A program made the position numbers and the translations under genes. A stretch of 64,000 bases of DNA from Methanoplanus endosymbiosus. Its GTDB lineage: Archaea > Halobacteriota > Methanomicrobia > Methanomicrobiales > Methanomicrobiaceae. Position 1 is the first letter of the stretch. Each line of letters starts with the position of its first letter. Shown here in pieces: positions 5,418 through 64,000 of the stretch. The stretch spans positions 1,364,001 through 1,428,000 of the forward strand of contig NZ_CP096115.1 in NCBI RefSeq assembly GCF_024662215.1. The letters are read 5' to 3'. The notes under the pieces were generated by a model. The model saw only the letters and a list, made by a program, of their open reading frames with translations. It was not told the origin of the DNA and ran no database searches.

Positions 5418-6044
5418 CTATGCTGTAACTGCACTCTCACCAGATGCTCCGGGGAATCTGACGTTTCCTCTCTGACCGGCTCCTTCAGGCGAATTCAGTT
5501 CTCCTTTGTGCCCGTCCATGAATGCCTTCATAAGTTCACGGGCGGTTTCTCTGTCACCGGACTCAAGAGCTGCACGGATGTCACTGACATCATAGCCCTG
5601 CTCTTCAAGCTTATCAAGGTGGCTGCTCATGCGGTCTCCGGCCTCACCGGATGCTGCACCGTTTCCTCTCTCGCCGGTTCCTTCAGGCGGAGTCAGTTCT
5701 CCTTTGTGCTCTTCGATGAACGCCTTCATAAGTTTACGGGCGGTTTCTTTGTCACCGGACTCAAGAGCTGAACGAATTTCACTGACATCATAGCCCTGCG
5801 ATTCGATATTTGCAAGCGCTTTTGTCAGCAGATTTCCCCTGTTGATGCTCTGATCTGTAAATCCTTCATCCGCAGACACAGGAAATACTAAAGCTGCTGA
5901 CAGGAACAGGAATGTCAGTCCTGCTGCAATAATTCCATTTTTCCTCATATTTTATCTCCTCTGGCGGGACTGAACCATGCAGTCCATGTAAAGTATATTT
6001 AACAATACGTAATATAATTGTTACTGATAGCTGCGGTTAAATCA
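5071..6044 (-). repeat. Tandem duplication, copy 1 (gene plus both flanks)
   Basis: This block resembles 6393-7335 along its length: the downstream flank starting TACAGCCGGATGATTTTTC, the whole 176-codon gene, and the upstream region containing AATATAATTGTTACTGAT. The duplicated unit therefore includes gene, 3-prime flank and promoter-proximal DNA, about 0.95 kb. Divergence is highest in the 3-prime flank and lowest in the repeat-coding part. Confidence 0.8.
5418..5948 (-). CDS. Exported helical-repeat protein A (family unknown)
   Basis: The 176-residue protein has a signal peptide (MRKNGIIAAGLTFLFLSAAL, ending near VSADE) and then two copies of a repeat of about 58 residues. The repeat core reads LEEQGYDVSDIRAALESGD, then ETARELMKAFM, and is followed by a Pro/Gly-rich linker (PPEGAGERGNG). 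The repeats are predicted to be charged helical hairpins. I do not recognise a named family. A good RBS (AGAGGAGAT) precedes the ATG. The neighbouring gene at 6706-7236 encodes a paralogue of identical length. It probably acts outside the cytoplasmic membrane; function unknown. Confidence 0.75.
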   Translation of the reverse strand: MRKNGIIAAGLTFLFLSAALVFPVSADEGFTDQSINRGNLLTKALANIESQGYDVSEIRSALESGDKETARKLMKAFIEEHKGELTPPEGTGERGNGAASGEAGDRMSSHLDKLEEQGYDVSDIRAALESGDRETARELMKAFMDGHKGELNSPEGAGQRGNVRFPGASGESAVTA

Positions 6045-6054: not shown

Positions 6055-6126
6055 CTGGAAACTGAAGGTACAGACCGCATATATATTCACACATAATTAT
6101 CAGGACTTTTCACACATTTTAAAAAT

Positions 6127-6168
6127 TTAGCGTAAATCCCCTTGGTCTTTAGCCCAGAGGTAGTTCAC
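6127..6168 (+). repeat. Scar of an IS200/IS605-type TnpB element (left end fused to right end)
   Basis: The sequence TTAGCGTAAAT plus CCCCTTGG equals the outer left-end arm of the TnpB element at 62600-63917. It runs through the shared loop TCTTTAG directly into CCCAGAGG and TAGTTCAC, which is the right-end arm of the same element. In the intact element the two ends are separate perfect hairpins (CCCCTTGG/CCAAGGGG and CCTCTGGG/CCCAGAGG) with the same loop. Here the gene between them is gone and the arms no longer pair fully, as expected from recombination between the two hairpins. Confidence 0.7.
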
Positions 6169-6392: not shown

Positions 6393-7335
6393 TACAGCCG
6401 GATGATTTTTCAGTGAATGAAATAAAAAGATAGTGAGAGGAGCCTTAATCCTCACATATATTATAAAATCCTGACCTCATGTATCAGACACTCTTATTTC
6501 CGGGTTTTGGGGGCGGGATTATTCCAGAGTTATCTGATATCAGGATTATTGAGTGATTTTCCGGATCACATCCGGGAATATTGAACATTTGTCTTTTTCT
6601 GGATTATTATGGGAATAATTATCCACAAGGTTTGTGGACAGTCTGTGTATTATTGGTATTAAGATTTATCTTCACTATGCCGGCTCAGACGGCTGTATTA
6701 TCTGTTTATACTACTGCAACTGCCCTCTCACCAGATGCTCCTCCTCTGCCGTTTCCTCTCTCACCGGCTCCTTCAGGTGGAGTCAGTTCTCCTTCGTGCC
6801 CGTCCATGAACGCCTTCATAAGTTCGCGGGCAGTTTCTCTGTCACCGGACTCAAGAGCTGCACGGATGTCACTGACATCATAGCCCTGCTCTTCAAGCTT
6901 ATCAAGGTGGCTGCTCATGCGGTCTCCGGCTTCACCTGATGCTGCACCGTTTTCTCTCTTACCGGCTCCTTCAGGCGGAGTCAGTTCTCCTTCGTGCTCG
7001 TCCATGAATGCCTTCATAAGTTCACGGGCAGTTTCGTTGTCACCGGACTCAAGAGCTGCACGGATGTCACTTACGTCATAGCCCTGCTCTTCAAGACTAT
7101 CAAGGTGGTTTGTCATCATCTCTCCTTTGTTGTTGCCCATACCCGCAGAATTACCATCCGCAGAAACTGGGAATACAACAAATGCAGTAAGGCACAGAAG
7201 TGCCAGTCCTGCCGCAATTATTCCTTTTTTCTTCATATTTTTTCTCCTCTGCCGGGACTGCCTTATGCAGCCCACGTAAAACATATTTTACAATATGTAA
7301 TATAATTGTTACTGATGCCAGAGGTTAAACGATTG
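6393..7335 (-). repeat. Tandem duplication, copy 2
   Basis: Second copy of the unit at 5071-6044. It includes the flank with TACAGCCGGATGATTTTTC, the gene 6706-7236 and the upstream sequence ending near GGTTAAAC. The palindromic TTTATATAAA found beyond copy 1 is absent here. Confidence 0.8.
6706..7236 (-). CDS. Exported helical-repeat protein B (paralogue of A)
   Basis: With the start at 7236 (after GAGGAGAAAAAAT) the protein is 176 residues, the same as its paralogue. The upstream in-frame ATG at 7284 has no RBS and would place 16 extra residues before the signal peptide. The signal peptide MKKKGIIAAGLALLCLTAFV ends near VSADG. Two repeats with the core EEQGYDVSDIRAALESGD and ETARELMKAFMD follow, separated by a Gly/Glu-rich linker, and the tail is GGASGERAVAVV. 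The repeats are almost identical to those of protein A at nucleotide level, suggesting recent duplication or gene conversion. Function unknown. Confidence 0.75.
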   Translation of the reverse strand: MKKKGIIAAGLALLCLTAFVVFPVSADGNSAGMGNNKGEMMTNHLDSLEEQGYDVSDIRAALESGDNETARELMKAFMDEHEGELTPPEGAGKRENGAASGEAGDRMSSHLDKLEEQGYDVSDIRAALESGDRETARELMKAFMDGHEGELTPPEGAGERGNGRGGASGERAVAVV

Positions 7336-48258: not shown

Positions 48259-51200
48259 TCAGTCTCCAAGTTCTACCACAACCCGGTGCTCTTCCTGATC
48301 ATCAGCCAGATGAATGATCTTATCAGCCTGATTAACGCCGTCAACAATAACAGATCTGATACATGATTTACTACCCCCTCCCGTACCTGATCCCTCACCT
48401 GAACTTTCACCTGATATTTTACCCGGAGCTTTATCTTCCTTACCGGAATTCTTAACCACAATATGATACATCGCTGAAAGATACCGGTAATCAACCTGGT
48501 ACGAATCCCAGTCCGCCGGGATACAGGGGTCAAATGTCAGGCAGTCTCCGGAAAGCCTGACCCCAAGAAGCGACTCAAGGATAAGCGTGTACATATATCC
48601 CGCCGAACCCGAATACCAGGTCCACCCGCCCCGTCCGGTATGCGGAGCAGCAGCATAGATGTCAGAAGCAAGTGCATACGGTTCAACCCGGTACTTTCTG
48701 ACATCCTCCTCCTTTCTGCTGTGATGAATAGGATTGATGAAAGGCAGCAGATCCCAGGCCTGCTCATTATCCTTCAGAACCGCAAAGGCTGCCACCACCC
48801 ATATAGCAGCATGGGAATACTGCCCGCCATTCTCCCGTACACCCGGAACATAACCTTTGATATATCCGGGATTTTTCATAGTCTTATCAAAAGGCGGGAT
48901 AAGAAGCGGCAAAAGGCGGTCCTCCCGAAGAATAAGATGCTCCTTCACTGCCTCCATAGCAGTGACCGCCCTCTCCTCTGAAGCAGCCCCTGAGAGGACT
49001 GCCCAGCTCTGGGCAATTGAATCTATCATGCACTCCTTATTAACAGCAGAACCAAGCGGCTCTCCGGAATCGAAATAGGCACGGCGGTACCATTCCCCAT
49101 CCCACCCATATCTCTCAATATTCACCCTGAGCTGCTCAGCATTCACACGGCAGAACTCTGCAAAAGATAAGTCACCCCGGATCTCTGCAACCTTACTAAA
49201 CCTCATCAGAAGATCAAAGATGAAAAATCCAAGCCAGACACTCTCTCCCTTACCTCCGGCACCGACAAGATTCATCCCGTCATTCCAGTCCCCGGTCCCC
49301 ATCAGAGGAAGACCATGCTCCCCAAACCTCATGCCACGCCGGACAGCCAGGACACAGTGTTCATACAGGCTTGCAGAAGTTTCCGACTGATTAGGGAGAT
49401 CATAGTACGAGTCCTCCTCAGGGAGCAGCTCACGCCCTTCGATAAACAAAATTTCCTCATCCAGAACTGCGAAATCACGGGTGCTCAGCACATAACGGCT
49501 GGCGGCAAACGGCAGCCAGAGATAATCATCAGAACAATGAGTCCTGACACCCCTGTTTAACGGCGGGTGCCACCAGTGCTGAGCATCACCCTCAATAAAC
49601 TGATGCCCGGCACAGAGAAGCAGCTGCCTCCTCATAAGCTCCGGCCTTGTATGAATAAGCGCCATCACATCCTGGAGCTGATCCCTGAATCCAAACGCCC
49701 CGCCAGACTGATAAAATCCGGAACGTGCCCACAAACGGGAAGCAATTATCTGATATACCAGCCATCCGTTGGCGAGCAGATCCACAGACATATCAGGAGT
49801 CTTAACCTGAACTGCACCAAGTGTCCGGCCCCAGTAATCTTTCACTGCTTTGAGTGCCGCATGTGCAGGCTCCACCCCACGATTCTTTAAGAGAAGAGTT
49901 CTTGCATCATCGCCGTCCCGCCCCACACCAAGAGTAAATATAATCTCACGCTCTTCCCCGTCAGTAAGTTCACAGTGAACCTGCACCGCAGCACAGGGAT
50001 CAAGACCAGCCCCGACTTTATTCGAGAGCCGGACCCTTTCCATCGCTGCCGGTCTGTCAGCCGAACCATTCCGCCCGATAAACTCATGCCGATCGCCGGT
50101 CAGAGTCCTGTTAATTATATTAGAGTCAAAAAATGCAACCCTGCCCGGAAATTCACAGTTATATGGATTTTTAGCAAAAACAGCTCCGGAGACCTGATCA
50201 ATTTCAGTGACCACATAAGGCAGTGATTTCGATCTCAGCTCCCCAAGAACCCATTCCACATATCCGGTGACAGAGAGAAATCTTTTGCGGCCCGATCTGT
50301 TCCTGAGCTTAAGAGAGAGAAATTTCACAGGTGAATCAACGGAGACATATACAGTCAGTTCGGAACTAATTCCCTGCTCAGAATATTCAAAGACAGAATA
50401 TCCAAACCCATGCCTGGTAACGTAACTGCCTGCCCCCCGCACAGGCCACGCTCCGGGGGACCAGAATTTGCCGGTCTCTTCATCCCTGATATACAGGCCC
50501 TCACCAGAGAGGTCCTGAACGGGATCATTCATCCATGGAGTCAGCCTGAACTCATGGGAGTTCTCACACCAGGTATAGGCGCTGCCATTCTCTGATACAA
50601 CCGTCCCAAAATTCTCATTTGCAAGTATATTCACCCACGGCGCAGGAGTTACATTCCATTTATCCGTAATAATTACGTACTCCTTTCCATCCGGAGAAAA
50701 TCCTCCGATACCGTTGAAATAAAGAAGCCCTTCTCCCGGAGAGCCTGAAATTCCGGATGAATCATGAGAAGGCGTTCTGGTAGTAAGCAGCTGGGGAACC
50801 TCAACCTCACACCAGCCAGCCCGCTCCATCTGTTCTGCAAGTGAACCGGCCCTGTCAGAAATAACTGCACGGGCTACAGTCTGCAACAGTATAAAATCCT
50901 CATCTGACATCAGTTCAAGATTAAGGATAAAGATCCCGCCTTTTTTATTTAACAACTGTGAATCAGACCCCTGAGGGACATGGCTTAGTATCTCATCCTG
51001 AAGCTCCTGACGATACCCGGATCTCTCCTCATTACAGATGACCAGATCAACCATCAGCCCCTTCATATGCCAGTATGCATGGGCCTGCACCATATCCCTG
51101 ATAATACTGATCCTCTTCCTGTTTTTAATCCTCACCAGTACAATGGGAACATCTCCCGATATTCCATACCTCCACAGACCTGACTGACCAAGTTTATTCT

Positions 51201-54200
51201 TAATAAGAACTTTACCGGATGCCCTTCTGACAGGATTTGAATAAATAACTGACGAAGCAAGAGAGCTATATATCTGAGCATCCTGCTCAGTCGCATCCAG
51301 CTGCCTTAGCATAACCTGTGCATGTGTCCAGGCCATTTCAAGAACCCTGTCAGTAATATTCCGGTCATAATATTTCTCAATCATGGCAAGAGCATCATCA
51401 CGGCTTTCACAGACCCCGGAAAATATATTGACACAGCCCGTCTCCTGCGGCTCAATGGAGATGGTGCATCTTATAGCCACAACCGGATCAAGAACCGACC
51501 CGGCAGTATCAGAAAGAGTTGAAGAATCGATCATCGCAACCGGTTGTGCAAGTGAATTGCCACGCCCGATAAATTTTAAACGGTCTGTCTCAAACGAGAT
51601 CTTTCGTACCTGTTTACCATTGACAGTCATCAGATGAAACATCCAGGGCGGACGTTCACCTTCAGAACGCGGCCTTCTCGTTGCAAGGATGGCATTTCTC
51701 TCCGGGATCAGTTCAGTCTGAACAAACAGATTAGTGAAGGCCGGGTGGCTTTCATCTGAGGCCTGAGGTGCCAGCACCACCTCAGCATAACTGGTAAACT
51801 CTAAACTTCGGGGGTTCCATGACCTGTTTGTCACCCATACTCTTCTGAGTTCCACATCATCTTCAGGAGAGACGATGACCTCAGTCCGGGTATAAAAGTC
51901 CCAGTCTTTCCTGAGGAATTCAGCCTGTGCCTGCCGGAAAGTTGTCTGAAATGAAACCGGTTTCTTTTTAGTGGGCTGATATCCGTTTGACCAGAACTCA
52001 CCGCTCGCAAGATCCCTGATATAACAGAAGGTGCCACTGCAGTCTGCGGTGGGATCCTCCCGCCATCTGGTTACAGCAAGATCATTCCATCTGCTGTACC
52101 CGGAACCGCTGTTGTTTACCATAACATGATATCTGCCGTTTGAAAGGAGATGCACCTCAGGCCTCGGAGTTTTTGCAGAATTAAAGGTGCGTGTAAGGGA
52201 TTCCGATATATCAGTTGCCTTATGAACCCCTTCCACCTCGCCGGTATGCGGATAGAATGGAAGATTTAACGGCATCTTCTCCTGTAGCAGCATCGCAGCT
52301 GACTGAAGACTGAGATCTGACATAAACCTCCTCTGCATAGGGCGGTCCAGTATTACATAGGCAAGAGAGAGCAGAGCCATACCCTGATGATGTGCCATAA
52401 ATGACTGAATTATCGAGTATTTCTGCCCCGGCGGAGTCCGGGAACGGGTGAAATCTATAGCTTCATAAAAGCCATATTCACCACAATATCCGGATGAACT
52501 CATCTTTTCAAGATTCCTGCAGGCCAGAAACGGATTTACCATCAGCCCCATCACAGCAGCATACGGGGCAATAACCAGATCATCCGCAAGCCCACGTTTG
52601 AAACCAAGTCCCGGAATTCCAAATGCCCGGTACTGGTAGTTCAGGCTTGTATCTGTGACATTATAACCGGATTCTGAGATACCCCACGGGATACCACGCC
52701 TCCGGGAATAGTCGATCTGTCTGGCAACGACTGCATGATATGTACGGTCAAGAAGGGTATTTTCGTACGTAGGCATCACAAGAAGCGGCATCAGGTATTC
52801 AAACATAGAACCACTCCACGAAATGAGAGTTGGCTTCCCGCCATCAATATTTGTGAGCAGACGGCCTAACGCGAACCAGTGATCCTGTGGAAGCTTCCCG
52901 TAAGCGATACCGACAAAGCTGGCAGTTCTTGCCTCTGATGCAAGCAGGTCATAAAAACTGGCATCCCGCCTGAGATCAGTCGCATTATATCCGATTGCAA
53001 GGAGATTACTCGCCCTGTCATAGAGAAATTCATACTCAATTTCAGAAAATTTCCGGCACTGAACAGAAAGACGTGATATCGACAGGAGTACCTCTTCAGC
53101 CCTCCCGACTGACTTTTCCATCTCATCAATGGTCCGAATCAGCCACATACGGCCCAGACCAAAGAATGAATCAGAATCAGAGGGATTCTCAAGCCATTCA
53201 CGAAGAGGACCTATGTGATCATACAGAGAATGCCTGATTTCAGCAATTTCACCAATAGTAGGGATCTGATTATCCAGCCCCTCGATTGTGGTGCAGATCA
53301 GAGATACATAGGGTGTCAGATGCTCAGGAATTTCACGCCATACTGTGTCAGGAGGACTGCCGGTGGACTGCCACAATACAAAATAATTCAGATCCTTTAT
53401 ATGGGCCTCTGTCTGTCGTTTAACTGCACCGGCCCACCACCTGACATCATCATCCGGATGACTGCCCAGTGCATCCCGCACTTCCGAGGCAATCACATCA
53501 AGAGATGAGAGAGATCTCAGTGTTTCACCAGTCATAACCGGCATCCGGGCTGCGCCATCTTTCAGTTCTGCAATCTTTGACCTGCCATATGTGAAAGACT
53601 CTGCTCCGCCCTCTTTTTGGGCATTATCAAGAGCCTCAGAGAGAAGAGAGAGGGTGTCAGATAAACCGTCTGCAAATTTATCTGACATAATCTTAGTATC
53701 CGGAAGTTCACATAGTCCCTGCCGCAGTACAAGAAGGTGGCTGACAAGGTTGCCACTGTCAACTGTTGAGATATAACGCGGAAGAAGCGGCTTTAATGTG
53801 ATAGTATCATACCAGTTGTAAAAATGACCCCGGAATCTCTTCAGCTGCCCCATAGTATTCATGGTATTTCCGGTACGCTCAATAAGTCCCCTGAGGGAGA
53901 GATAACCAAAGTCATACGCAGTGAGATTTGCAAGAAGTAAAAGCCCGACATCTGTCGGAGAAGTGCGGTGGGCAACTGCTGAAACCGGCTGCTCCTGATA
54001 ATTGTCAGGCGGGAGGTAATGATCTTCAGCAGTGACAAACGTCTCAAAGAAACGCCAGGTTTTCCGTGCAACAGCTCTTAAAAATAAGCTCTGATCAGGA
54101 GTCAGATCAAAGACATGAGATCTCTGCGGCTGGCTGATCCATGATGCAATAATCGGCGAGAGAATCCATGCACAGGCAAAAAATGCAATAACCGGAGAAG

Positions 54201-57138
54201 AAACAAGACGCTCCTGAATCTGAAGGGCAAGCAGTCCGGCCCCGATTACCGGCCCGGCCCACATAATTCTGTACATTCCTGCAAGTCCTGAAGTTTTTGC
54301 CTGTGCAGCCTCCTGATTAGTAGTCCATTCCAGCAGATGCCGGTGGGAACCTGCCATACGAAAGCAGGACCTAAGCATAGCATCAAGTGAAATATATGCC
54401 TCATATGGGAGGAATATAAGATTGATCAGAGGGACAGTTATCTGACTCCTGACAAGAGAGGGCAGATCACGGAGATGCAGCATCCAGGTCTGCTTTTCAG
54501 GCTTTTTTACAACTCCCCGGCAGATGATGATGACTGAAGGGATCAGATACAGTGAGGCAATAAAGGCTGTCCAGAACAGAGGATTGCCAAAGCTGATCCA
54601 CGACATGATAAGAAATAGTAATGCTGCCGGAGCTACGAGACTTCGTCTCAGATTATCAAATATCTTCCACCGGCAGAGAAGAGAAAGTGGATTTCTCTGT
54701 ACTTTTGAAGAAGCGTCAAGAATAAATGGAAAAATCCACTGCATAATCTGCCAGTCGCCTCTGATCCACCTGTGCCTTCGTTTGATATCAGCGAGATAAC
54801 TGTTTGGGTAATCTTCAAGGACCAAAACATCACTGACAAAGCCGGCTCTGGCATAACATCCCTCAAGCAGATCATGGCTTAATATAAGATTTTCAGGGAA
54901 ACGCCCTTCAAATATTTGTGAGAATACTTCAAGGTCATAGATACCCTTACCGATAAATGACCCTTCCTTAAAGGCATCCTGATATAGATCAGATACTGCA
55001 CGGGTATAAGGATCAATGCCCGGTTCACCTCCGAAGAATGAGGCAAATCGGGAGATGCCAGTCTCTCTCAGAGACAGAGCAACACGGGGCTGGAGAATTC
55101 CATATCCTTCCCTGATCACCTGGTTAACCGGGTCCATTACCGGCCGGTTGAGCGGGTGGGCCAGAGTACCTATAAGTTTTCCAGCACTGCTGCGGGGAAG
55201 TTCGGTGTCAGTATCAAGGGTTATCACATATCTGATACTGCCCAGAATCTCCTGATCACCAACAATACGTGAGAAGGATTTAGTCCCTCTTCCCAATATG
55301 AAAGTATTGAATGCACCAAGAATACCTCTCTTCCTCTCATAACCCATCCATACCCCTTCAGATTCATTCCATGTCCTGGCCCTGTGCATGAGGAAAAAGG
55401 TTGACGGCTTATCATCACAATATCTGCTGTTAAGACCTTCAATCCCGGCAGCAAGAAGACTGACCAGTTCTTCGTCTCCGGGCAGCTCCTGGACTGATGC
55501 ATTCCGGAGATCGGTCAGCAGGGCAAAGTGCAGGTTATCATCACGGTTCGCCAGGTACCGCACTTCAAGTGAATCAAGGAGTGATGCGACATCTCCGGGT
55601 TCTGACAGAACTGTAGGAATTACAACGATAGTCCTTTGGTCATCAGGTATCCCCGATGAATAGTCCATCTTCGGAAGTAAAACGGGAGGGATGAGTATAG
55701 TATATACCCAGTTTATAACCGCAACTGCAACCTGACTTACCGGGAAGAGAAGGAGAAGCATGACAGGCAGAGTAATATACCATGCGTAAGCGGGAATATG
55801 CCCATACCCAAAAAGAGCTGCAATCAGGATTAAAGAGAGAATGCCTGAGAAATACAGCGGAAGGGTAAAGGAATAGACCTTTCTTCTGAACCGATCAGAA
55901 AACGGAGGAGTATAGGAGAGGGCTTCTTCAAGAGACACTCTGCCTTCATCTGTCAGATAATAACCAACATGGGATGCCCGAATCTCCCCGTCCTTATTAT
56001 TCCGGTTATCACAGGCAAGCTCTACGGCTTTTCCTGCAACATCACCCTCACCGAGCCGTCCTTTTTTTGCAATCTCCTCAACCACATGCCGGTACCGGTC
56101 ACGGGTTTCAAAGTCCATAGCTGCATAATTATCCGCAGGATCACTCCGGAGTATATGCTCAACAAGACTGACCTTTTCAACGAACTCACGCCAGTCAATC
56201 AGATCAAGGAGACGAAGGCTGTTAATGCAGTTTCCAAAGGAGACCTGATCAACAGCCTGGGCCTGAGCCTCCGCATTGACCATCTGCTCAATAGTCAGAT
56301 TACTCTCAGAAAGCCTCTGTTCAATCCATGTAAGTGGAAATGCAAATGAACCGGACTGACCCTGCAGCTGCCTCGCCATCTCCGCAACAAAAGCGCTGGT
56401 CATGGGAAGGTCTGAACGTGCCATATCTGCAATAAACGGGATCAGACCTTTTGGATTATGACCTGCAACCTCAGTCATCTGGTCCACCCATTGATCAGCA
56501 GAGTCACAATCAAGCCTGTCTGCTGAAATCTTTCCGGATATCCTGCGCAGATTCTCAATCAAAGAGAGCCTGAGCATAATTGGCACAGCCCAGAGCTCCC
56601 CAAGCAGCAGAGGAGTAACACTCTGATACGAATTAATAAAATCCAGGAGAGTTTTGTCGTCAATCCTCCCGTCACTATGTGCAATTAATTCTGTAGCGAT
56701 ATGGTAAATCCGCGGAAATCCTTCAAAAGGCCCATTTTCCAGACGGGGAAACTCTTCACAGTACTCTTCGGAGAGGTGGCAGCGGGCAGTCAGAATCTGT
56801 TCATCAATAAGATAGAAGTTATCCAGCAGCCATTCACCTGCCGGAGCAATCCGGCGACTGGCCTCATTGGCAGCATTCAGCAGATTATAAGTGTCCAGCA
56901 GGACCTTCTCGTTATCAGCAAGCCGTGGAAGGAGACTACCGTATCCATTTCCAGGACCTGCCCTGTATATGCCTGCAATCTCCTTTGCATGCTGAACCAT
57001 CTGATCCCTGCTGTACAGTTCATCCCGAAGCGGACCGGCATCAACCTGGCTTACAGATGCCTCTTTGTCATTAAATCTCCCCTTAAATCCAAATTTATTT
57101 CTCAATATAAACCGCCCCCAAAATTTCTGACAGGCCAC
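48259..57138 (-). CDS. Cyclic beta-1,2-glucan synthase (NdvB/ChvB-like)
   Basis: 2959 residues, the size of bacterial ChvB/NdvB. Domains in order: N-terminal soluble part (1-410); membrane helices (about 415-485); glycosyltransferase 84 domain (about 500-820: VVIPTVLSEPGDVASLLDSL, LDTDTELPRSS near 644, RRHRWIRGDWQ near 791); further helices (about 830-1000); a glucoamylase-like domain (about 1050-1590: TSPTDVGLLLLANLTAYDF, FMAHHQGMALLSL). Two GH94-type N-terminal sandwich units follow, then a GH94 phosphorylase domain (GFRDQLQDVMAL, FIEGDAQHWWHPP, CSDDYLWLPFA, GTGDWNDGMNLVG). In bacteria the enzyme starts on itself, elongates, trims and cyclises glucans exported to the envelope. GTG start at 57138. 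Acquisition from bacteria is inferred. Confidence 0.92.
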   Translation of the reverse strand: MACQKFWGRFILRNKFGFKGRFNDKEASVSQVDAGPLRDELYSRDQMVQHAKEIAGIYRAGPGNGYGSLLPRLADNEKVLLDTYNLLNAANEASRRIAPAGEWLLDNFYLIDEQILTARCHLSEEYCEEFPRLENGPFEGFPRIYHIATELIAHSDGRIDDKTLLDFINSYQSVTPLLLGELWAVPIMLRLSLIENLRRISGKISADRLDCDSADQWVDQMTEVAGHNPKGLIPFIADMARSDLPMTSAFVAEMARQLQGQSGSFAFPLTWIEQRLSESNLTIEQMVNAEAQAQAVDQVSFGNCINSLRLLDLIDWREFVEKVSLVEHILRSDPADNYAAMDFETRDRYRHVVEEIAKKGRLGEGDVAGKAVELACDNRNNKDGEIRASHVGYYLTDEGRVSLEEALSYTPPFSDRFRRKVYSFTLPLYFSGILSLILIAALFGYGHIPAYAWYITLPVMLLLLFPVSQVAVAVINWVYTILIPPVLLPKMDYSSGIPDDQRTIVVIPTVLSEPGDVASLLDSLEVRYLANRDDNLHFALLTDLRNASVQELPGDEELVSLLAAGIEGLNSRYCDDKPSTFFLMHRARTWNESEGVWMGYERKRGILGAFNTFILGRGTKSFSRIVGDQEILGSIRYVITLDTDTELPRSSAGKLIGTLAHPLNRPVMDPVNQVIREGYGILQPRVALSLRETGISRFASFFGGEPGIDPYTRAVSDLYQDAFKEGSFIGKGIYDLEVFSQIFEGRFPENLILSHDLLEGCYARAGFVSDVLVLEDYPNSYLADIKRRHRWIRGDWQIMQWIFPFILDASSKVQRNPLSLLCRWKIFDNLRRSLVAPAALLFLIMSWISFGNPLFWTAFIASLYLIPSVIIICRGVVKKPEKQTWMLHLRDLPSLVRSQITVPLINLIFLPYEAYISLDAMLRSCFRMAGSHRHLLEWTTNQEAAQAKTSGLAGMYRIMWAGPVIGAGLLALQIQERLVSSPVIAFFACAWILSPIIASWISQPQRSHVFDLTPDQSLFLRAVARKTWRFFETFVTAEDHYLPPDNYQEQPVSAVAHRTSPTDVGLLLLANLTAYDFGYLSLRGLIERTGNTMNTMGQLKRFRGHFYNWYDTITLKPLLPRYISTVDSGNLVSHLLVLRQGLCELPDTKIMSDKFADGLSDTLSLLSEALDNAQKEGGAESFTYGRSKIAELKDGAARMPVMTGETLRSLSSLDVIASEVRDALGSHPDDDVRWWAGAVKRQTEAHIKDLNYFVLWQSTGSPPDTVWREIPEHLTPYVSLICTTIEGLDNQIPTIGEIAEIRHSLYDHIGPLREWLENPSDSDSFFGLGRMWLIRTIDEMEKSVGRAEEVLLSISRLSVQCRKFSEIEYEFLYDRASNLLAIGYNATDLRRDASFYDLLASEARTASFVGIAYGKLPQDHWFALGRLLTNIDGGKPTLISWSGSMFEYLMPLLVMPTYENTLLDRTYHAVVARQIDYSRRRGIPWGISESGYNVTDTSLNYQYRAFGIPGLGFKRGLADDLVIAPYAAVMGLMVNPFLACRNLEKMSSSGYCGEYGFYEAIDFTRSRTPPGQKYSIIQSFMAHHQGMALLSLAYVILDRPMQRRFMSDLSLQSAAMLLQEKMPLNLPFYPHTGEVEGVHKATDISESLTRTFNSAKTPRPEVHLLSNGRYHVMVNNSGSGYSRWNDLAVTRWREDPTADCSGTFCYIRDLASGEFWSNGYQPTKKKPVSFQTTFRQAQAEFLRKDWDFYTRTEVIVSPEDDVELRRVWVTNRSWNPRSLEFTSYAEVVLAPQASDESHPAFTNLFVQTELIPERNAILATRRPRSEGERPPWMFHLMTVNGKQVRKISFETDRLKFIGRGNSLAQPVAMIDSSTLSDTAGSVLDPVVAIRCTISIEPQETGCVNIFSGVCESRDDALAMIEKYYDRNITDRVLEMAWTHAQVMLRQLDATEQDAQIYSSLASSVIYSNPVRRASGKVLIKNKLGQSGLWRYGISGDVPIVLVRIKNRKRISIIRDMVQAHAYWHMKGLMVDLVICNEERSGYRQELQDEILSHVPQGSDSQLLNKKGGIFILNLELMSDEDFILLQTVARAVISDRAGSLAEQMERAGWCEVEVPQLLTTRTPSHDSSGISGSPGEGLLYFNGIGGFSPDGKEYVIITDKWNVTPAPWVNILANENFGTVVSENGSAYTWCENSHEFRLTPWMNDPVQDLSGEGLYIRDEETGKFWSPGAWPVRGAGSYVTRHGFGYSVFEYSEQGISSELTVYVSVDSPVKFLSLKLRNRSGRKRFLSVTGYVEWVLGELRSKSLPYVVTEIDQVSGAVFAKNPYNCEFPGRVAFFDSNIINRTLTGDRHEFIGRNGSADRPAAMERVRLSNKVGAGLDPCAAVQVHCELTDGEEREIIFTLGVGRDGDDARTLLLKNRGVEPAHAALKAVKDYWGRTLGAVQVKTPDMSVDLLANGWLVYQIIASRLWARSGFYQSGGAFGFRDQLQDVMALIHTRPELMRRQLLLCAGHQFIEGDAQHWWHPPLNRGVRTHCSDDYLWLPFAASRYVLSTRDFAVLDEEILFIEGRELLPEEDSYYDLPNQSETSASLYEHCVLAVRRGMRFGEHGLPLMGTGDWNDGMNLVGAGGKGESVWLGFFIFDLLMRFSKVAEIRGDLSFAEFCRVNAEQLRVNIERYGWDGEWYRRAYFDSGEPLGSAVNKECMIDSIAQSWAVLSGAASEERAVTAMEAVKEHLILREDRLLPLLIPPFDKTMKNPGYIKGYVPGVRENGGQYSHAAIWVVAAFAVLKDNEQAWDLLPFINPIHHSRKEEDVRKYRVEPYALASDIYAAAPHTGRGGWTWYSGSAGYMYTLILESLLGVRLSGDCLTFDPCIPADWDSYQVDYRYLSAMYHIVVKNSGKEDKAPGKISGESSGEGSGTGGGSKSCIRSVIVDGVNQADKIIHLADDQEEHRVVVELGD

Positions 57139-57852: not shown

Positions 57853-60800
57853 TCACATAAAATCAGCCAGACCAAGCTGCTTCTCCGGCGGCTCGCCAAA
57901 TGTCGAAATGACCGCCATATTCAGCACCTCAACCCTCTGCCGGGTGTAATCTGAAACATTGTACTCCTCACACATCTTAATCGACATACTGAGGTATTTC
58001 TTCACAGAACCCTCATGAACGGTGGCGATGAGCTTATTTCCGCATTTAGTACATTTTCCTGCAAGAGGCATTCTCCTGTAGCTTGAATTGCACTTAGTGC
58101 ACCTCACCTTCTGCTTGGAGTAGGAATTCAGGTTGCCCATAATATCCCTGATGAAATGGGTATTCAAAACCCTCTCGGCTACATCATCCTCATCCACAGC
58201 ACGAATAATCCGCCCCAGTTCAAGTTCAGCCTCAAGCTTTTCAACCATTGTCTGGAGTGTATTATATGAAGAGATCAGAGGTCCGGCAGAGATATCAGTT
58301 GTATTATGCGTAAACATAATCCCCTCATACTGCCCGGGTTTTCCAAGCCTGAGTTCAACATGATCAACAATCTTCTCAAGATCCTTGGGGTGCACATAAT
58401 CAAGACCTGCAAGGTACAACTCAAGCGGATAGGAAGAACAGGCATCCACATTATGGCTCTCCTTATCAACCTCAGCCGGATCAATTCTCCGTGTCAGAAC
58501 AAGAGGGGCATCCATCGAACCACCCCTTGTTTCCGGAAGAAAAGACCGTGAAAAATTGATAAGTCCGTCTAAAAGCAGCATGATACAGTCCTCATCCCCG
58601 TCACACTGCCCGGTAAATATCCCGTTTACTTCGACTGTATGATCCTCAGCAACCGTCAGGCAGTAGACATAATCCTCTGCACTGGCAACCACCTCTTTTT
58701 TAGTAATCATATCCGGAATCATAACCCCGCCTTCAAAACCGGGAATATAGTCACCCTCCTTCAGTTCAAGGGCCTTAATCTTCCTCTGGTAGTTAAGGTC
58801 AGAGACGAGCATAGCATGCTCAGGTGTCACCATGATACTTTTGCCGCGTCTTGTCTCAAAATAGAGAAGTGTATCGGGAGATTTATGAACGGAAACAGAA
58901 GTTACCTCTCTCATTCTGACATTACCATAAACATCAACGGCCCTCACCCAGTACGGCTTTACCGGATCTGAATAATATGTGCCTACACAGTCAACAGATT
59001 TGCAGCTCATATCAAAATTCTCAAGGACAAATTTCTTTATCGGAAGAGTATCCCACCTCTCACCGTCATATACCGTCAGTCCGGTCTCGCCCTGAAAACA
59101 GTTCCTCCTCTTTGCGGCATGAAAGAACGGATGGCCATAGCCGACAAGAGCCTTTGTAAAGCCTATCAGCCGCACCAGCACCCCGGCACTGGTATGCGGT
59201 GCAAGACCCATAAGAAGAGTACCGACAAGATCACCCCTCTTAGAGGCATTATAATATGGCTCTAATCCATAGACCTTCTCAAGCAGTTCATCAACAAACT
59301 TTGAGACCTTGACAAGCCACTCACCGCAATGTTCAGAGACTAAAATATCCTGGCATTTAAGCTCAAGAATCTGTTCATCTGATTCAAGAGGCCTGCCATA
59401 GACATCGTGGGTATATCCAAGCTCCAAAAGCTTCTGGTAACTGACTCCGATCTCACGCGGAATAATCTGTGTGAGCGGAAGATCGATCATATCGTACCGG
59501 AGTGTGCCGTCCTTAAAGACATAAAGATCCTGCCTGGCCCTTAAAATTCCCTTCTCCAGAGCCTCAACACATCTCTCCTTTGACATCAGGCCCTTTACAC
59601 CCTTGACAAGTTTAAGCTCGGAATCCCGCATGACAAGCGCCTTTAATGCACGGTCATACTCCTCCTTCACATTGATAGTAATAGTCTGTGCACATACTCC
59701 GTCAACCCCGCATACCGGACATACACCCTTTACTACATCATGCTGACATCTTGGGCAGACATAAACAGGCTCAGTATGTGCACCGCATTCACAGACATTT
59801 TTATAGGTCTTAAAACCGCAGGAAGAACATCTTCTAAGGCCCACCTCAGCAGTGATAAAACCGCCGTCACGGTTATCCCTTGACTTTGCGACCTGCTGAA
59901 ATGACCTCCTCGAACCGCCTTCATTTCCGACAGGATACAGCACATTTGGCGCAGGATTCATCTTTCTCTCCTTTGATTTACCAGGTCTGCCCATCCTTCC
60001 GCCTATGCGTGTGCCGGCCTTTGACCGAACCTTAAATCCGGAGAGATAAGAGACAAGCTCAAGGGGGTCATCAGGATATTTCTCATCCGGAAATTCCTTT
60101 CTATTCAGGCTGTCATCAAGACCGAGGCATGCGATAAAAACTGCTGCGTCAGAAACGACCAGATTTCCGGAGATGACCTTGTGAGGCAGGAGAAGCAACT
60201 CCAGCAGATCTTTTGTCCGGGATGTATTGGGCATTGTGAGGGAATCTCCTGACACAACACCCTCTGCCGATACAATCTCTCTCAGCTCAAGGATCTCCGC
60301 CGCTGTCAGATCGTCCCAGATATACATAAAATCAGGGTGGAGATATGCACCGGCAAGTGTCAGATCAATGGCCTGCCTGCCGGATTCCGGCCTATCTTTG
60401 CCCCCTTCAAGTATCCACCATTCATGACAGTATGCAGCCGGGATCAGCATGTGATTATTCTCCAGAAACTCGCCGTATGATATGAGAATTTCACCGACAT
60501 CGAGAATTCTCTCGACACTGTTCCCAAGTTTAATCGCTGTAGGAATATCATCAACCCTCAGCACTTCTCCGGAATAGAGCCTGACAGTCGGCCCTTCGAC
60601 TGTATCAACCGGAACAACACCACAGGCTTTGCCGGGCCGCTCCACCTTCATCTGAGTGCCCACTGCCAGAAAATTGCCAAGCAGATGCAGACCCGACGGA
60701 TTAAAACCGGCGGCAGCAAATCCGGTATTTCTTGAACGGCCATATCTCAGCCTGAAACCACCCGGTCGTAAAGGATAGGAGAAGACCGGCCTGCCGCCGA

Positions 60801-61746
60801 CAAGATCACGGATATACTTGTCCTTTGGCTTAATTTTACACTTTTTTGCTGAATCATCCTCTTCCACCTCTTCATCATCTCCACCCGATGATGCGGACGA
60901 GAAGGATCCGGAGACGAGATCATCAAGCCATTCCCACCCTTCCATCTTGACCTTACGCACAGTCTTCTGGATCTTTGGTGCCTTTAATGCAAGACCTTCA
61001 GCCACAACAAGACCCATACCGCCCCTCACAGTATTGGTCTCAATCCTCTCAAGATTCCTGTATCCGGATACCTCAACCCGCTCAGTAGGTTCACCCTCAA
61101 CACATACCGGACAGTTCCTAATAATATGCCTCAGCTCGTCATCTGACGGCATATACTGAAGGCTTGATATGGAGTTGTACTTCTTAATCTCCTCAACATA
61201 TCTCTCAACCTCCTCTTTTCTTGGGATATAACGGTTGATCCCAAGACCTTTCCGGACATAATCCCCGACAAGAACAGAGAGTGCCTGTGCTGTACCTCCT
61301 GCACTCCGGATAGGACCTGCATAGTATATTTTTAAATATTCAGTCCCGTCATCATTTTTCCCAAGTGATATATTTCCTATCCCTTCGGTTGGTGCGGCCA
61401 CAACACCCTCGGTAAGAAGTGCCATTGATGTCCGTATGGCATGGTCAAGGATCTCCTCCTTTGTCTCCTCACCAAATCTTTTTGCGATGAAATCATCACC
61501 TATCTTCAAGGAGACCTCCTCTCTGGACATCATCTCTCCAAGTTCCCTCAGCCTTACAGCAACACCCGGATACCCTAACAGCGCCTCCACCCTGTCAGCA
61601 AGGTCGCTCGCCACCGGAATTTCAACATCAAGCGCCGGATCAATTCCAACCTTCCTTGCCTGTTTTGCTATTTCTATGGCCTTATAGAGGTCATCCTCAA
61701 GCGATTTGAAATAACTCTCCATCTCCGGCGATGCCTGCATGACCAT
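57853..61746 (-). CDS. polC: DNA polymerase D (Pol II) large subunit DP2 with intein
   Basis: 1297 residues including a 165-residue intein (residues 883-1047); the mature protein is about 1132. DP2 features: [36 protein letters not shown], zinc motifs CPVC (near 213) and [16 protein letters not shown] plus [16 protein letters not shown], the catalytic-region sequence [31 protein letters not shown] split by the intein, and a C-terminal zinc ribbon [19 protein letters not shown]. It is the replicative polymerase of euryarchaea. The first ATG is used here; Met3 or Met9 are possible. Confidence 0.96.
58606..59100 (-). other. Mini-intein in DP2 (165 residues, C-terminal Gln)
   Basis: Starts with Cys (block [14 protein letters not shown]), has the block B signature TPEHAMLV (His) and blocks [23 protein letters not shown] just before the extein Cys of CDGDED. 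There is no homing-endonuclease domain (no LAGLIDADG). The last residue is Gln rather than Asn, preceded by Gly rather than His. Gln-ending Pol-II inteins are known in other archaea. The insertion site lies between RRN and CDGD in the conserved catalytic segment. Confidence 0.9.
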
Positions 61747-62599: not shown

Positions 62600-62704
62600 G
62601 TGAACTACCTCTGGGCTAAAGACCCAGAGGCTTCCTGCTTCATACCTCGGAGTAACCTCCACAGGTCCACAGGCCCTTCCCCCCGTTCCAAGGGTGCAAA
62701 TATA
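62600..62704 (-). ncRNA. Probable omega (reRNA) guide RNA scaffold of TnpB
   Basis: About 105 nt lie between the tnpB stop and the right end, with GC-rich complementary stretches (CACCCTTGG/CCGTTCCAAGGG region; GGCCTGTGGACCTGTGG) and the terminal hairpin. TnpB proteins use RNA from this position as scaffold, with guide sequence read from the DNA just beyond the right end, here the 3-prime end of thyA. Inferred from family knowledge. Confidence 0.6.
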
Positions 62705-63817
62705 TTATATTCCAATTAAATTCTGTCTATCAAGAGCAAATTTCTTGATATTTATTGCAGCATTAATATCTCTGTCATGATGCATTTCACAATCCGGACA
62801 AACCCAATCCCTTATTGACAAAGTCATTTCAGAATTGTAATATCCACAATTACTGCAAATTTTTGTAGATGGTTCAAACTGTCCTATCTGTAGTATAGTC
62901 TTACCATATCGCTCCGCTTTATATTTTAATTTTTCAAAAAAAGCGGACCACCCGGCATCAGAGATACTTTTTGCTAATTTATGATTTTTAAGTAAATTCT
63001 CAACTTTTAATGTTTCAACAGCAATTGCTTGGTTCTCGCTAATAATTTGAAAAGAAATCTTATGCTGAAAATCATTACGCTGATTACTTACTTTTTCATG
63101 TTGTTTTGCTAACTGTAATTTTGCTTTTTTGAAATTTGAAGAACCTTTCTTTTTTCGGCTAAATCTTCTCTGAAGAGTTTTTAACCGTTTTTCTGAATTT
63201 TTCAGGAACTTTGGATTGTCATACTTATTACCTTCAGATGTAACAACAAAGTCCTTTATACCTACATCAAGACCAATTGTATTACTGGCATCAAATGATC
63301 CAGGTAATGGATACTCTAACTCATCATCGACAAGAATACTTATGAAATATTTACCTGCGTTATTCCGGGAAACAGTTGCAGTCTTTAAATTTCCGTTAAA
63401 CCTTCTATGAAGTATCGTTTTAACATATCCAATTTTAGGCAACTTAACACAATTCCGGTCAAAATCAACAGAATATGCTTGAGGAACAGAAAATGATTGA
63501 ACTGGATTTTTTCGTGATTTGAATTTAGGAAATCCTTTTTTCTCCCTGAAAAATTTAGTAAATGCGTTATCCAGATGTAATGTAGCTCCCTGAAGAGATT
63601 GTGAATTAACTTCCTTTAACCATTCATTTTCTTGTTTTAGTTCCGGAAGCATCTTGTTTAAAACAAATCTCGATACTGATTTTCCATCAGTTTCATAAGA
63701 TTTTATCTTAATTTCAAGTGCAAAATTATATACAAATCTACAAGCACCAAAATGTTGTTCAAATTTTTCAATTTGAGATTTATTTGGATACATTCTAAAT
63801 TTGTAAGCAATTAACAT
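62705..63817 (-). CDS. tnpB: TnpB RNA-guided nuclease (IS200/IS605 OrfB)
   Basis: 370 residues from the ATG at 63817 (MLIAYKFRMYPNKSQIEKFE); an ATG eight codons upstream is less like the family. A wedge-like N-terminal domain includes FGACRFVYNFAL and SQSLQGATLHLDNAFTKFF. RuvC motifs: NTIGLDVGIKDFV (Asp, about 184), AIAVETLKVENLLKN (Glu, about 268) and CEMHHDRDINAAINIKK (Asp, near 350). The zinc ribbon is CSNCGYYNSE...WVCPDC. All catalytic residues are present and there is no stop, so it may be functional. Confidence 0.94.
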   Translation of the reverse strand: MLIAYKFRMYPNKSQIEKFEQHFGACRFVYNFALEIKIKSYETDGKSVSRFVLNKMLPELKQENEWLKEVNSQSLQGATLHLDNAFTKFFREKKGFPKFKSRKNPVQSFSVPQAYSVDFDRNCVKLPKIGYVKTILHRRFNGNLKTATVSRNNAGKYFISILVDDELEYPLPGSFDASNTIGLDVGIKDFVVTSEGNKYDNPKFLKNSEKRLKTLQRRFSRKKKGSSNFKKAKLQLAKQHEKVSNQRNDFQHKISFQIISENQAIAVETLKVENLLKNHKLAKSISDAGWSAFFEKLKYKAERYGKTILQIGQFEPSTKICSNCGYYNSEMTLSIRDWVCPDCEMHHDRDINAAINIKKFALDRQNLIGI

Positions 63818-64000
63818 GCATATAATAATTAAACCTAACACATTAAATGCTTTGTGTTATAAACACTATATTGTCGCTTACATCCCCTTGGCTAAAGACC
63901 AAGGGGTTTTACGCTAACCTTATAAAAAACTGTTTTTTTCGGGAAAACTTCCCGTAAATACATTCAGAGATGATCAGAACACTATCTAAAAGTTTCAAAT

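Follow-up and report, generated by a model that had tools for sequence, protein, structure and literature searches.

Fused ends of TnpB elements in Methanoplanus endosymbiosus: a dispersed family of 47-bp terminal-only copies and its probable origin by core deletion between hairpins

The window analysed here, a 64,000-nucleotide stretch of the Methanoplanus endosymbiosus genome, contains a short sequence in which the two ends of a TnpB element appear to have been brought together. This raises the questions of which element the sequence came from, how its ends were joined, and whether DNA of this length may itself be mobile.

Structure and genomic family of the fused copy

Window positions 6118-6168 read TTTA followed by AAAATTTAGCGTAAATCCCCTT-GGTCTTTAGCC-CAGAGGTAGTTCAC and were confirmed to be the left and right arms of an IS200/IS605, IS1341-type TnpB element joined through GGTCTTTAGCC (Table 1). 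The joining of left arm, loop and right arm was the central claim of the original prediction and was borne out by this sequence and by ten further copies in the genome. The extent of 42 bp first assigned to the joined structure was too short on the left, where the boundary lies five bases further out; the fused element is thus 47 bp (6122-6168) plus the retained target TTTA, and homology among copies starts at 6118. Within the window, the exact core GGTCTTTAGCC was found three times, once here (6144-6154) and once in each hairpin of a long TnpB element, and four times when up to one mismatch was allowed, compared to 0.7 expected by chance. Fused copies keep TTTA on the left, do not duplicate the flank and have no terminal inverted repeats; TTTAA and TTTAT are TAM-like motifs at the left ends of Sulfolobus TnpB elements (PMC10640517). 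The ends of the window copy, AAAATTTAGCG and TAGTTCAC, bear no inverted-repeat relation to each other of the kind that defines a MITE, and its 47 bp leave no room for a transposase gene. On either side of the fused element are small paralogous genes arranged in tandem on the minus strand (window 5418-5948 and 6706-7284).

Table 1. Coordinates of the fused copy and of the long TnpB element in the window.
Feature	Position	Strand	Remarks
Retained target / TAM-like tetranucleotide TTTA	6118..6121	+	conserved at most left boundaries, of minis as well as of long elements; sequence beyond unrelated
Left-end part: outer left end and left hairpin 5' arm	6122..6143	+	identical to nine long elements elsewhere in genome
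GGTCTTTAGCC, 11-nt direct repeat common to left and right hairpins, exchange site	6144..6154	+	
Right-end part: right hairpin 3' arm and outer right end TAGTTCAC	6155..6168	+	identical to right ends of long elements
Whole long TnpB element, another left-end subfamily, target TTTA at 63923-63926	62600..63922	-	relative, not parent, of fused copy
Right-end hairpin CCTCTGGG-TCTTTAG-CCCAGAGG of long element	62608..62630	-	-6.8 kcal/mol for 62609-62635, z -2.7
tnpB, 378 aa: HTH_OrfB_IS605, OrfB_IS605 and Cas12f1-like TNB domains	62705..63841	-	
Left-end hairpin CCCCTTGG-TCTTTAG-CCAAGGGG of long element	63884..63906	-	-9.3 kcal/mol as single-stranded DNA, z -4.5

The long element of the window begins with TTTA followed by TAAGGTTAGCGTAAAACCCCTTGGTCTTTAGCCAAGGGG and finishes with GCCTCTGGGTCTTTAGCCCAGAGGTAGTTCAC on the minus strand. 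It had been named as the source of the scar, an attribution that we abandon because 4 of the 37 left-arm positions of the fused copy do not match it. By contrast, the same 37 nt are identical in nine long copies elsewhere in the genome, and the right end is also identical. The parent type carries TnpB domains and subterminal hairpins and has a Y1 tnpA in one longer element (L025), as is characteristic of the IS200/IS605 family.

The whole genome (3,163,021 bp) was searched with the fused locus, and the 43 matches were then read out. By this approach, at least 11 fused copies of about 47 bp, including that of the window, were found in unrelated flanks. The ten others aligned over 48-54 bp with 85-100% identity (E 8e-21 to 4e-9), which excludes chance as the source of the fused copy. 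Also detected were 16 long two-hairpin copies, with hairpins about 1.3-3 kb apart and the same outer ends as the fused copies, three internally deleted short copies (120-169 bp between hairpin cores) and some single ends. Like the long copies, the fused ones mostly run from TTTA to GTTCAC, with point changes in a few. Left-end variants among the fusions were TTTAAAAATTTAG, TTTTAAAAGCGTAG, TTTACAAAACAAG and TTTATAAGTTGAG, so that at least three left-end subfamilies have given rise to the fusion. A left-left palindrome at genome position 2534327 and a right-right palindrome at 1903088, the latter with a similar counterpart in genome G005, are probably further products of hairpin-centred template switching or copying errors. 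Thus, the idea of a one-off scar gave way to a family: the fused copy is a terminal-only PATE, a kind already published (PMC3119063), of which the methanogen member is new.

That the sequence is instead a regulatory or structural repeat resembling TnpB ends by chance is very improbable. The copies examined were mostly intergenic, as such a repeat might be, but both ends of the element and the TTTA target are present in them, and no match to the fused repeat was found in Rfam. A repeat of wide occurrence lacking any link to TnpB elements, the finding that would have spoken against the original prediction, was not encountered, as all copies bear TnpB-element ends; with ten more copies of this makeup in the genome, chance resemblance and a regulatory repeat were rejected. 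Viral contigs had no exact match to the right-end pattern, hence no matching viral carrier was found.

Fusions and empty sites in related genomes

The proposed search of this genome and its relatives added to the 11 copies here the same fusion in five related genomes (same-genus G001, G011, G021, G023 and G005), always with intact outer ends. The companion proposal, to look for empty sites in relatives, was productive in that G001 had no element at the four orthologous sites tested (L010, L012, L013 and L014 aligned too poorly, and L018 and L019 were left out) or in the region matching the window locus, which has a single copy of the gene. The Methanoplanus genome likewise has no element in the paralogous upstream region. 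These empty sites are compatible with both histories considered below, deletion in place and arrival of a mini-element. No full-length element was found at an orthologous site in any genome compared (one genome per species).

A second family, TTCAT followed by AAGAACGTAGCAGGAAACCCCTGTGTCTTTAGCTCAGGGGTAGTTGAC, is about 53 bp long and has a better preserved single hairpin. Its five copies in the Methanoplanus genome (L048-L051; genome positions 167596, 1850806, 1850895, 2609874 and 2697487) are 96-100% identical, and no longer copy or parent was detected in this genome, nor any in G001. The copy at 1850806 abuts the start codon of a gene, TTCAT being the reverse complement of ATGAA.

When public genomes were scanned with the right end of the second family, matches led to Methanosarcina and related MAGs. 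Genomes G329, G387 and G456 appear to be Methanosarcina, judged by mini loci shared with Methanosarcina records (e.g., L163 and L201). In the long elements of Methanosarcina and these MAGs, the sequence of the left hairpin is repeated unchanged in the right one. Fusions of 48 bp after TTCAT with the hairpin intact numbered 8, 9 and 6 in three genomes by one strict pattern. Covariation was rejected as proof of a functional single hairpin, as the parental hairpins are already identical and the pairing is inherited. One mini of G456 (L197, G456:C12:49734) lies just upstream of a gene start codon (MNTRVSIVRCSDY...). The same site is uninterrupted in G329 and G436 (TTCATG/CTTATCC), i.e., a base-exact empty site of TTCAT followed by GCTTATCC, and a decayed copy occupies the same position in G387. 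Four relatives also lack a mini at another G456 site (L201); the joint there differs by two bases. Based on these empty sites, insertion or excision of Methanosarcina minis is precise and leaves no target duplication, or else it was the elements from which they descend that moved in this way. Many minis of G329 have the spacer AAAACC, which was seen in none of the seven long left ends read in that genome. Left-end subtypes confined to minis are only suggestive as evidence of amplification, as one long element of G456 has AAAACC too. In G387, about 30 left ends, AAACCCCTGAGTCTTTAGCTCAGGGGATATA, are nearly identical, which looks like the outcome of a recent burst of a related element.

Hairpin quality, transposases and the origin of the fusions

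In the window copy, the fused hairpin has a folding energy of -1.4 kcal/mol, compared to -8.3 and -8.1 kcal/mol for the parental hairpins. Its stem is imperfect, with 6 of 8 positions of the palindrome paired, and the whole 47-mer folds like shuffled sequence (z = 0.02). A restored stem was seen in only two fused copies of the genome (L014 and L016), most being without one. The TnpA of IS608 acts as a dimer on hairpin-bearing ends and uses guide sequences at the hairpin feet (PMC5934647); thus, the fused copy is expected to be a poor TnpA substrate. With its fused arms pairing badly, the window copy is probably inert in its present form.

Two Y1 tnpA genes were found in the genome. One lies inside the longer element L025 (genome 1761671-1763350), which shares its left-end subfamily with the fused copy. 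It is the only matching tnpA in the genome and is interrupted by one TGA (CKYR*NVII) in an otherwise complete frame. Its product is 78% identical to an intact TnpA (L143) of G021, the element of which has a similar left end; the product of the second gene, at genome position 2851281, is about 30% identical to the L025 protein. Given the single TGA, the mobiliser of the fused-copy family may have died recently. The earlier suggestion that TnpA could still recognise the fusion is therefore weak for the window copy, with its broken hairpin and the nonsense codon in the matching tnpA, and plausible for sister families with an intact hairpin.

Core deletion between the two hairpins is well supported as the origin of the fusions. 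The original prediction of deletion between loop-sharing hairpins has the best support of the origins considered, by virtue of a junction within the 11-nt repeat and of its recurrence, and was in error as to the parent and the uniqueness of the event. A full-length element of about 1.3 kb, belonging to the TTTAAAAATTTAGCG subfamily, would have inserted 3' of TTTA between the tandem paralogues, with the 11-nt repeat present in both of its hairpins. In single-stranded DNA, probably the lagging-strand template, the folded hairpins could come to lie near each other or be held by transposase. The copying strand might then slip or jump from the left hairpin to the right, or the repeats might anneal after a break. 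Beyond the anatomy, shared repeat, 11-copy family, parental subfamily and recurrence in other genomes, all of which are observed, we infer the deletion at the window site itself and the slippage mechanism. Several left-end variants carry the fusion here and in related genomes, which indicates that it arose repeatedly at one junction, as repeat-mediated deletion predicts. The weak fold of the window copy is likewise expected of a scar and not of a selected mobile unit. We consider it probable, with some reserve, that the window copy was made by core deletion in place between hairpins. Against this account, about 11 of about 30 element sites would need deletion at the same junction, which is a high share, and deletion at the window locus is not seen directly, G001 being without an element there and at the four other sites compared.

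The fusion may instead have formed once elsewhere and been pasted 3' of TTTA as a ready-made 47-bp mini-element, a history that we regard as possible but doubtful, as we do its route, in which a Y1 (HUH) TnpA would act in trans on the single hairpin and both outer cleavage sites. Several fusions with the arms of the window copy, some identical throughout, occur in unrelated places, and the orthologous G001 sites lack fusions where this could be judged. The five near-identical copies of the second family have no parent here, minis with intact hairpins are common in Methanosarcina (6-9 per genome in three genomes), and one relative has an intact TnpA that matches. In addition, six strain-specific insertions of ISHwa23 in Haloquadratum are all of 52 bp, which may indicate mobility (PMC3119063). 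However, the window-type fusion lacks the stable hairpin of the ends on which IS608 TnpA works (PMC5934647), and a TGA codon interrupts the one tnpA of the genome that matches. The base-exact and further empty sites of the Methanosarcina relatives, which would suit a mini-element, fit equally well with a full element that inserted and later lost its core. The wider proposal that single-hairpin TnpB-end fusions of about 48 bp are themselves mobile in methanogens, moved by Y1 TnpA in trans and spreading without a parent, is tenable, if somewhat short of probable; were it true, few known mobile DNAs would be as short as these fusions.

TnpB elements encode a guided nuclease. A double-strand break in or beside the element, made for example by TnpB or TnpA cleavage, could also have been followed by microhomology-mediated joining of the 11-nt repeats. 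We view this as unlikely; being one form of the deletion account, it is not fully separate from deletion in place. The long element of the window has TnpB domains, the 11-nt repeat is long enough, and Dyall-Smith et al. liken repeat-mediated deletions to MMEJ (PMC3119063). Such breaks would, however, need to be frequent, and Dyall-Smith et al. argue on this same ground against random breaks (PMC3119063); moreover, the right-end guide targets flanking DNA and not the interior of the element.

Comparison with known short elements

Core deletion between hairpins, which we favour, has a documented precedent. Dyall-Smith et al. (2011) described ISHwa23 of Haloquadratum walsbyi, a TnpB element of 1500 bp cut to 52 bp between 19-bp near-terminal repeats, and HqIRS46, for which four strain comparisons showed a reduction to 52 bp; in-place deletion of the core between near-terminal palindromes was thereby documented by strain comparison (PMC3119063). 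The fused copies of Methanoplanus resemble these terminal-only PATEs (ISHwa23, TnpB/IS1341-type, and HqIRS46) in having IS605-type outer ends fused at a near-terminal palindrome that is repeated at both ends of the parent, in being about 50 bp long, too short for a transposase, and dispersed alongside parents, and in keeping the target oligonucleotide with neither inverted terminal repeats nor target duplication. They differ in belonging to another archaeal order and in having unrelated sequence. The shared repeat measures 11 nt in Methanoplanus compared to 19-22 bp in H. walsbyi, and the fused hairpin is imperfect for this reason. The deletion was seen by strain comparison in H. walsbyi, whereas the Methanoplanus case was compared with one genome per species.

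A PATE-like element of Halanaerobium hydrogeniformans is similarly an ends-only IS605 derivative; it differs in being a single copy of 271 nt that keeps part of tnpB and the whole right end (PMC7290912). The fusions are also like REP sequences mobilised by TnpA-REP in being short, single-hairpin and dispersed in many copies, with a link to the Y1/HUH family. By contrast, the ends here are those of TnpB elements, and the 5' foot of the hairpin is CGTAAAT rather than the GT[AG]G of REP sequences (PMC6006769).

Terminal-only TnpB remnants, earlier described from one halophilic archaeon, are now found in two methanogen groups, and core deletion between hairpins thus emerges as a recurrent fate of TnpB elements. 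Naturally occurring variants with better or worse single hairpins, together with the base-exact empty site, form a test set for the minimal IS605 end on which TnpA can act.

Two other genes of the window drew attention. DNA polymerase II large subunit (DP2, 1297 aa) is encoded at 57853-61746 and has a weak intein-splicing match in its catalytic domain (E 1e-5). At 48259-57138, a 2959-aa protein with GH94 and glucoamylase-like domains resembles cyclic beta-1,2-glucan synthases and is of unusual size for an archaeon.
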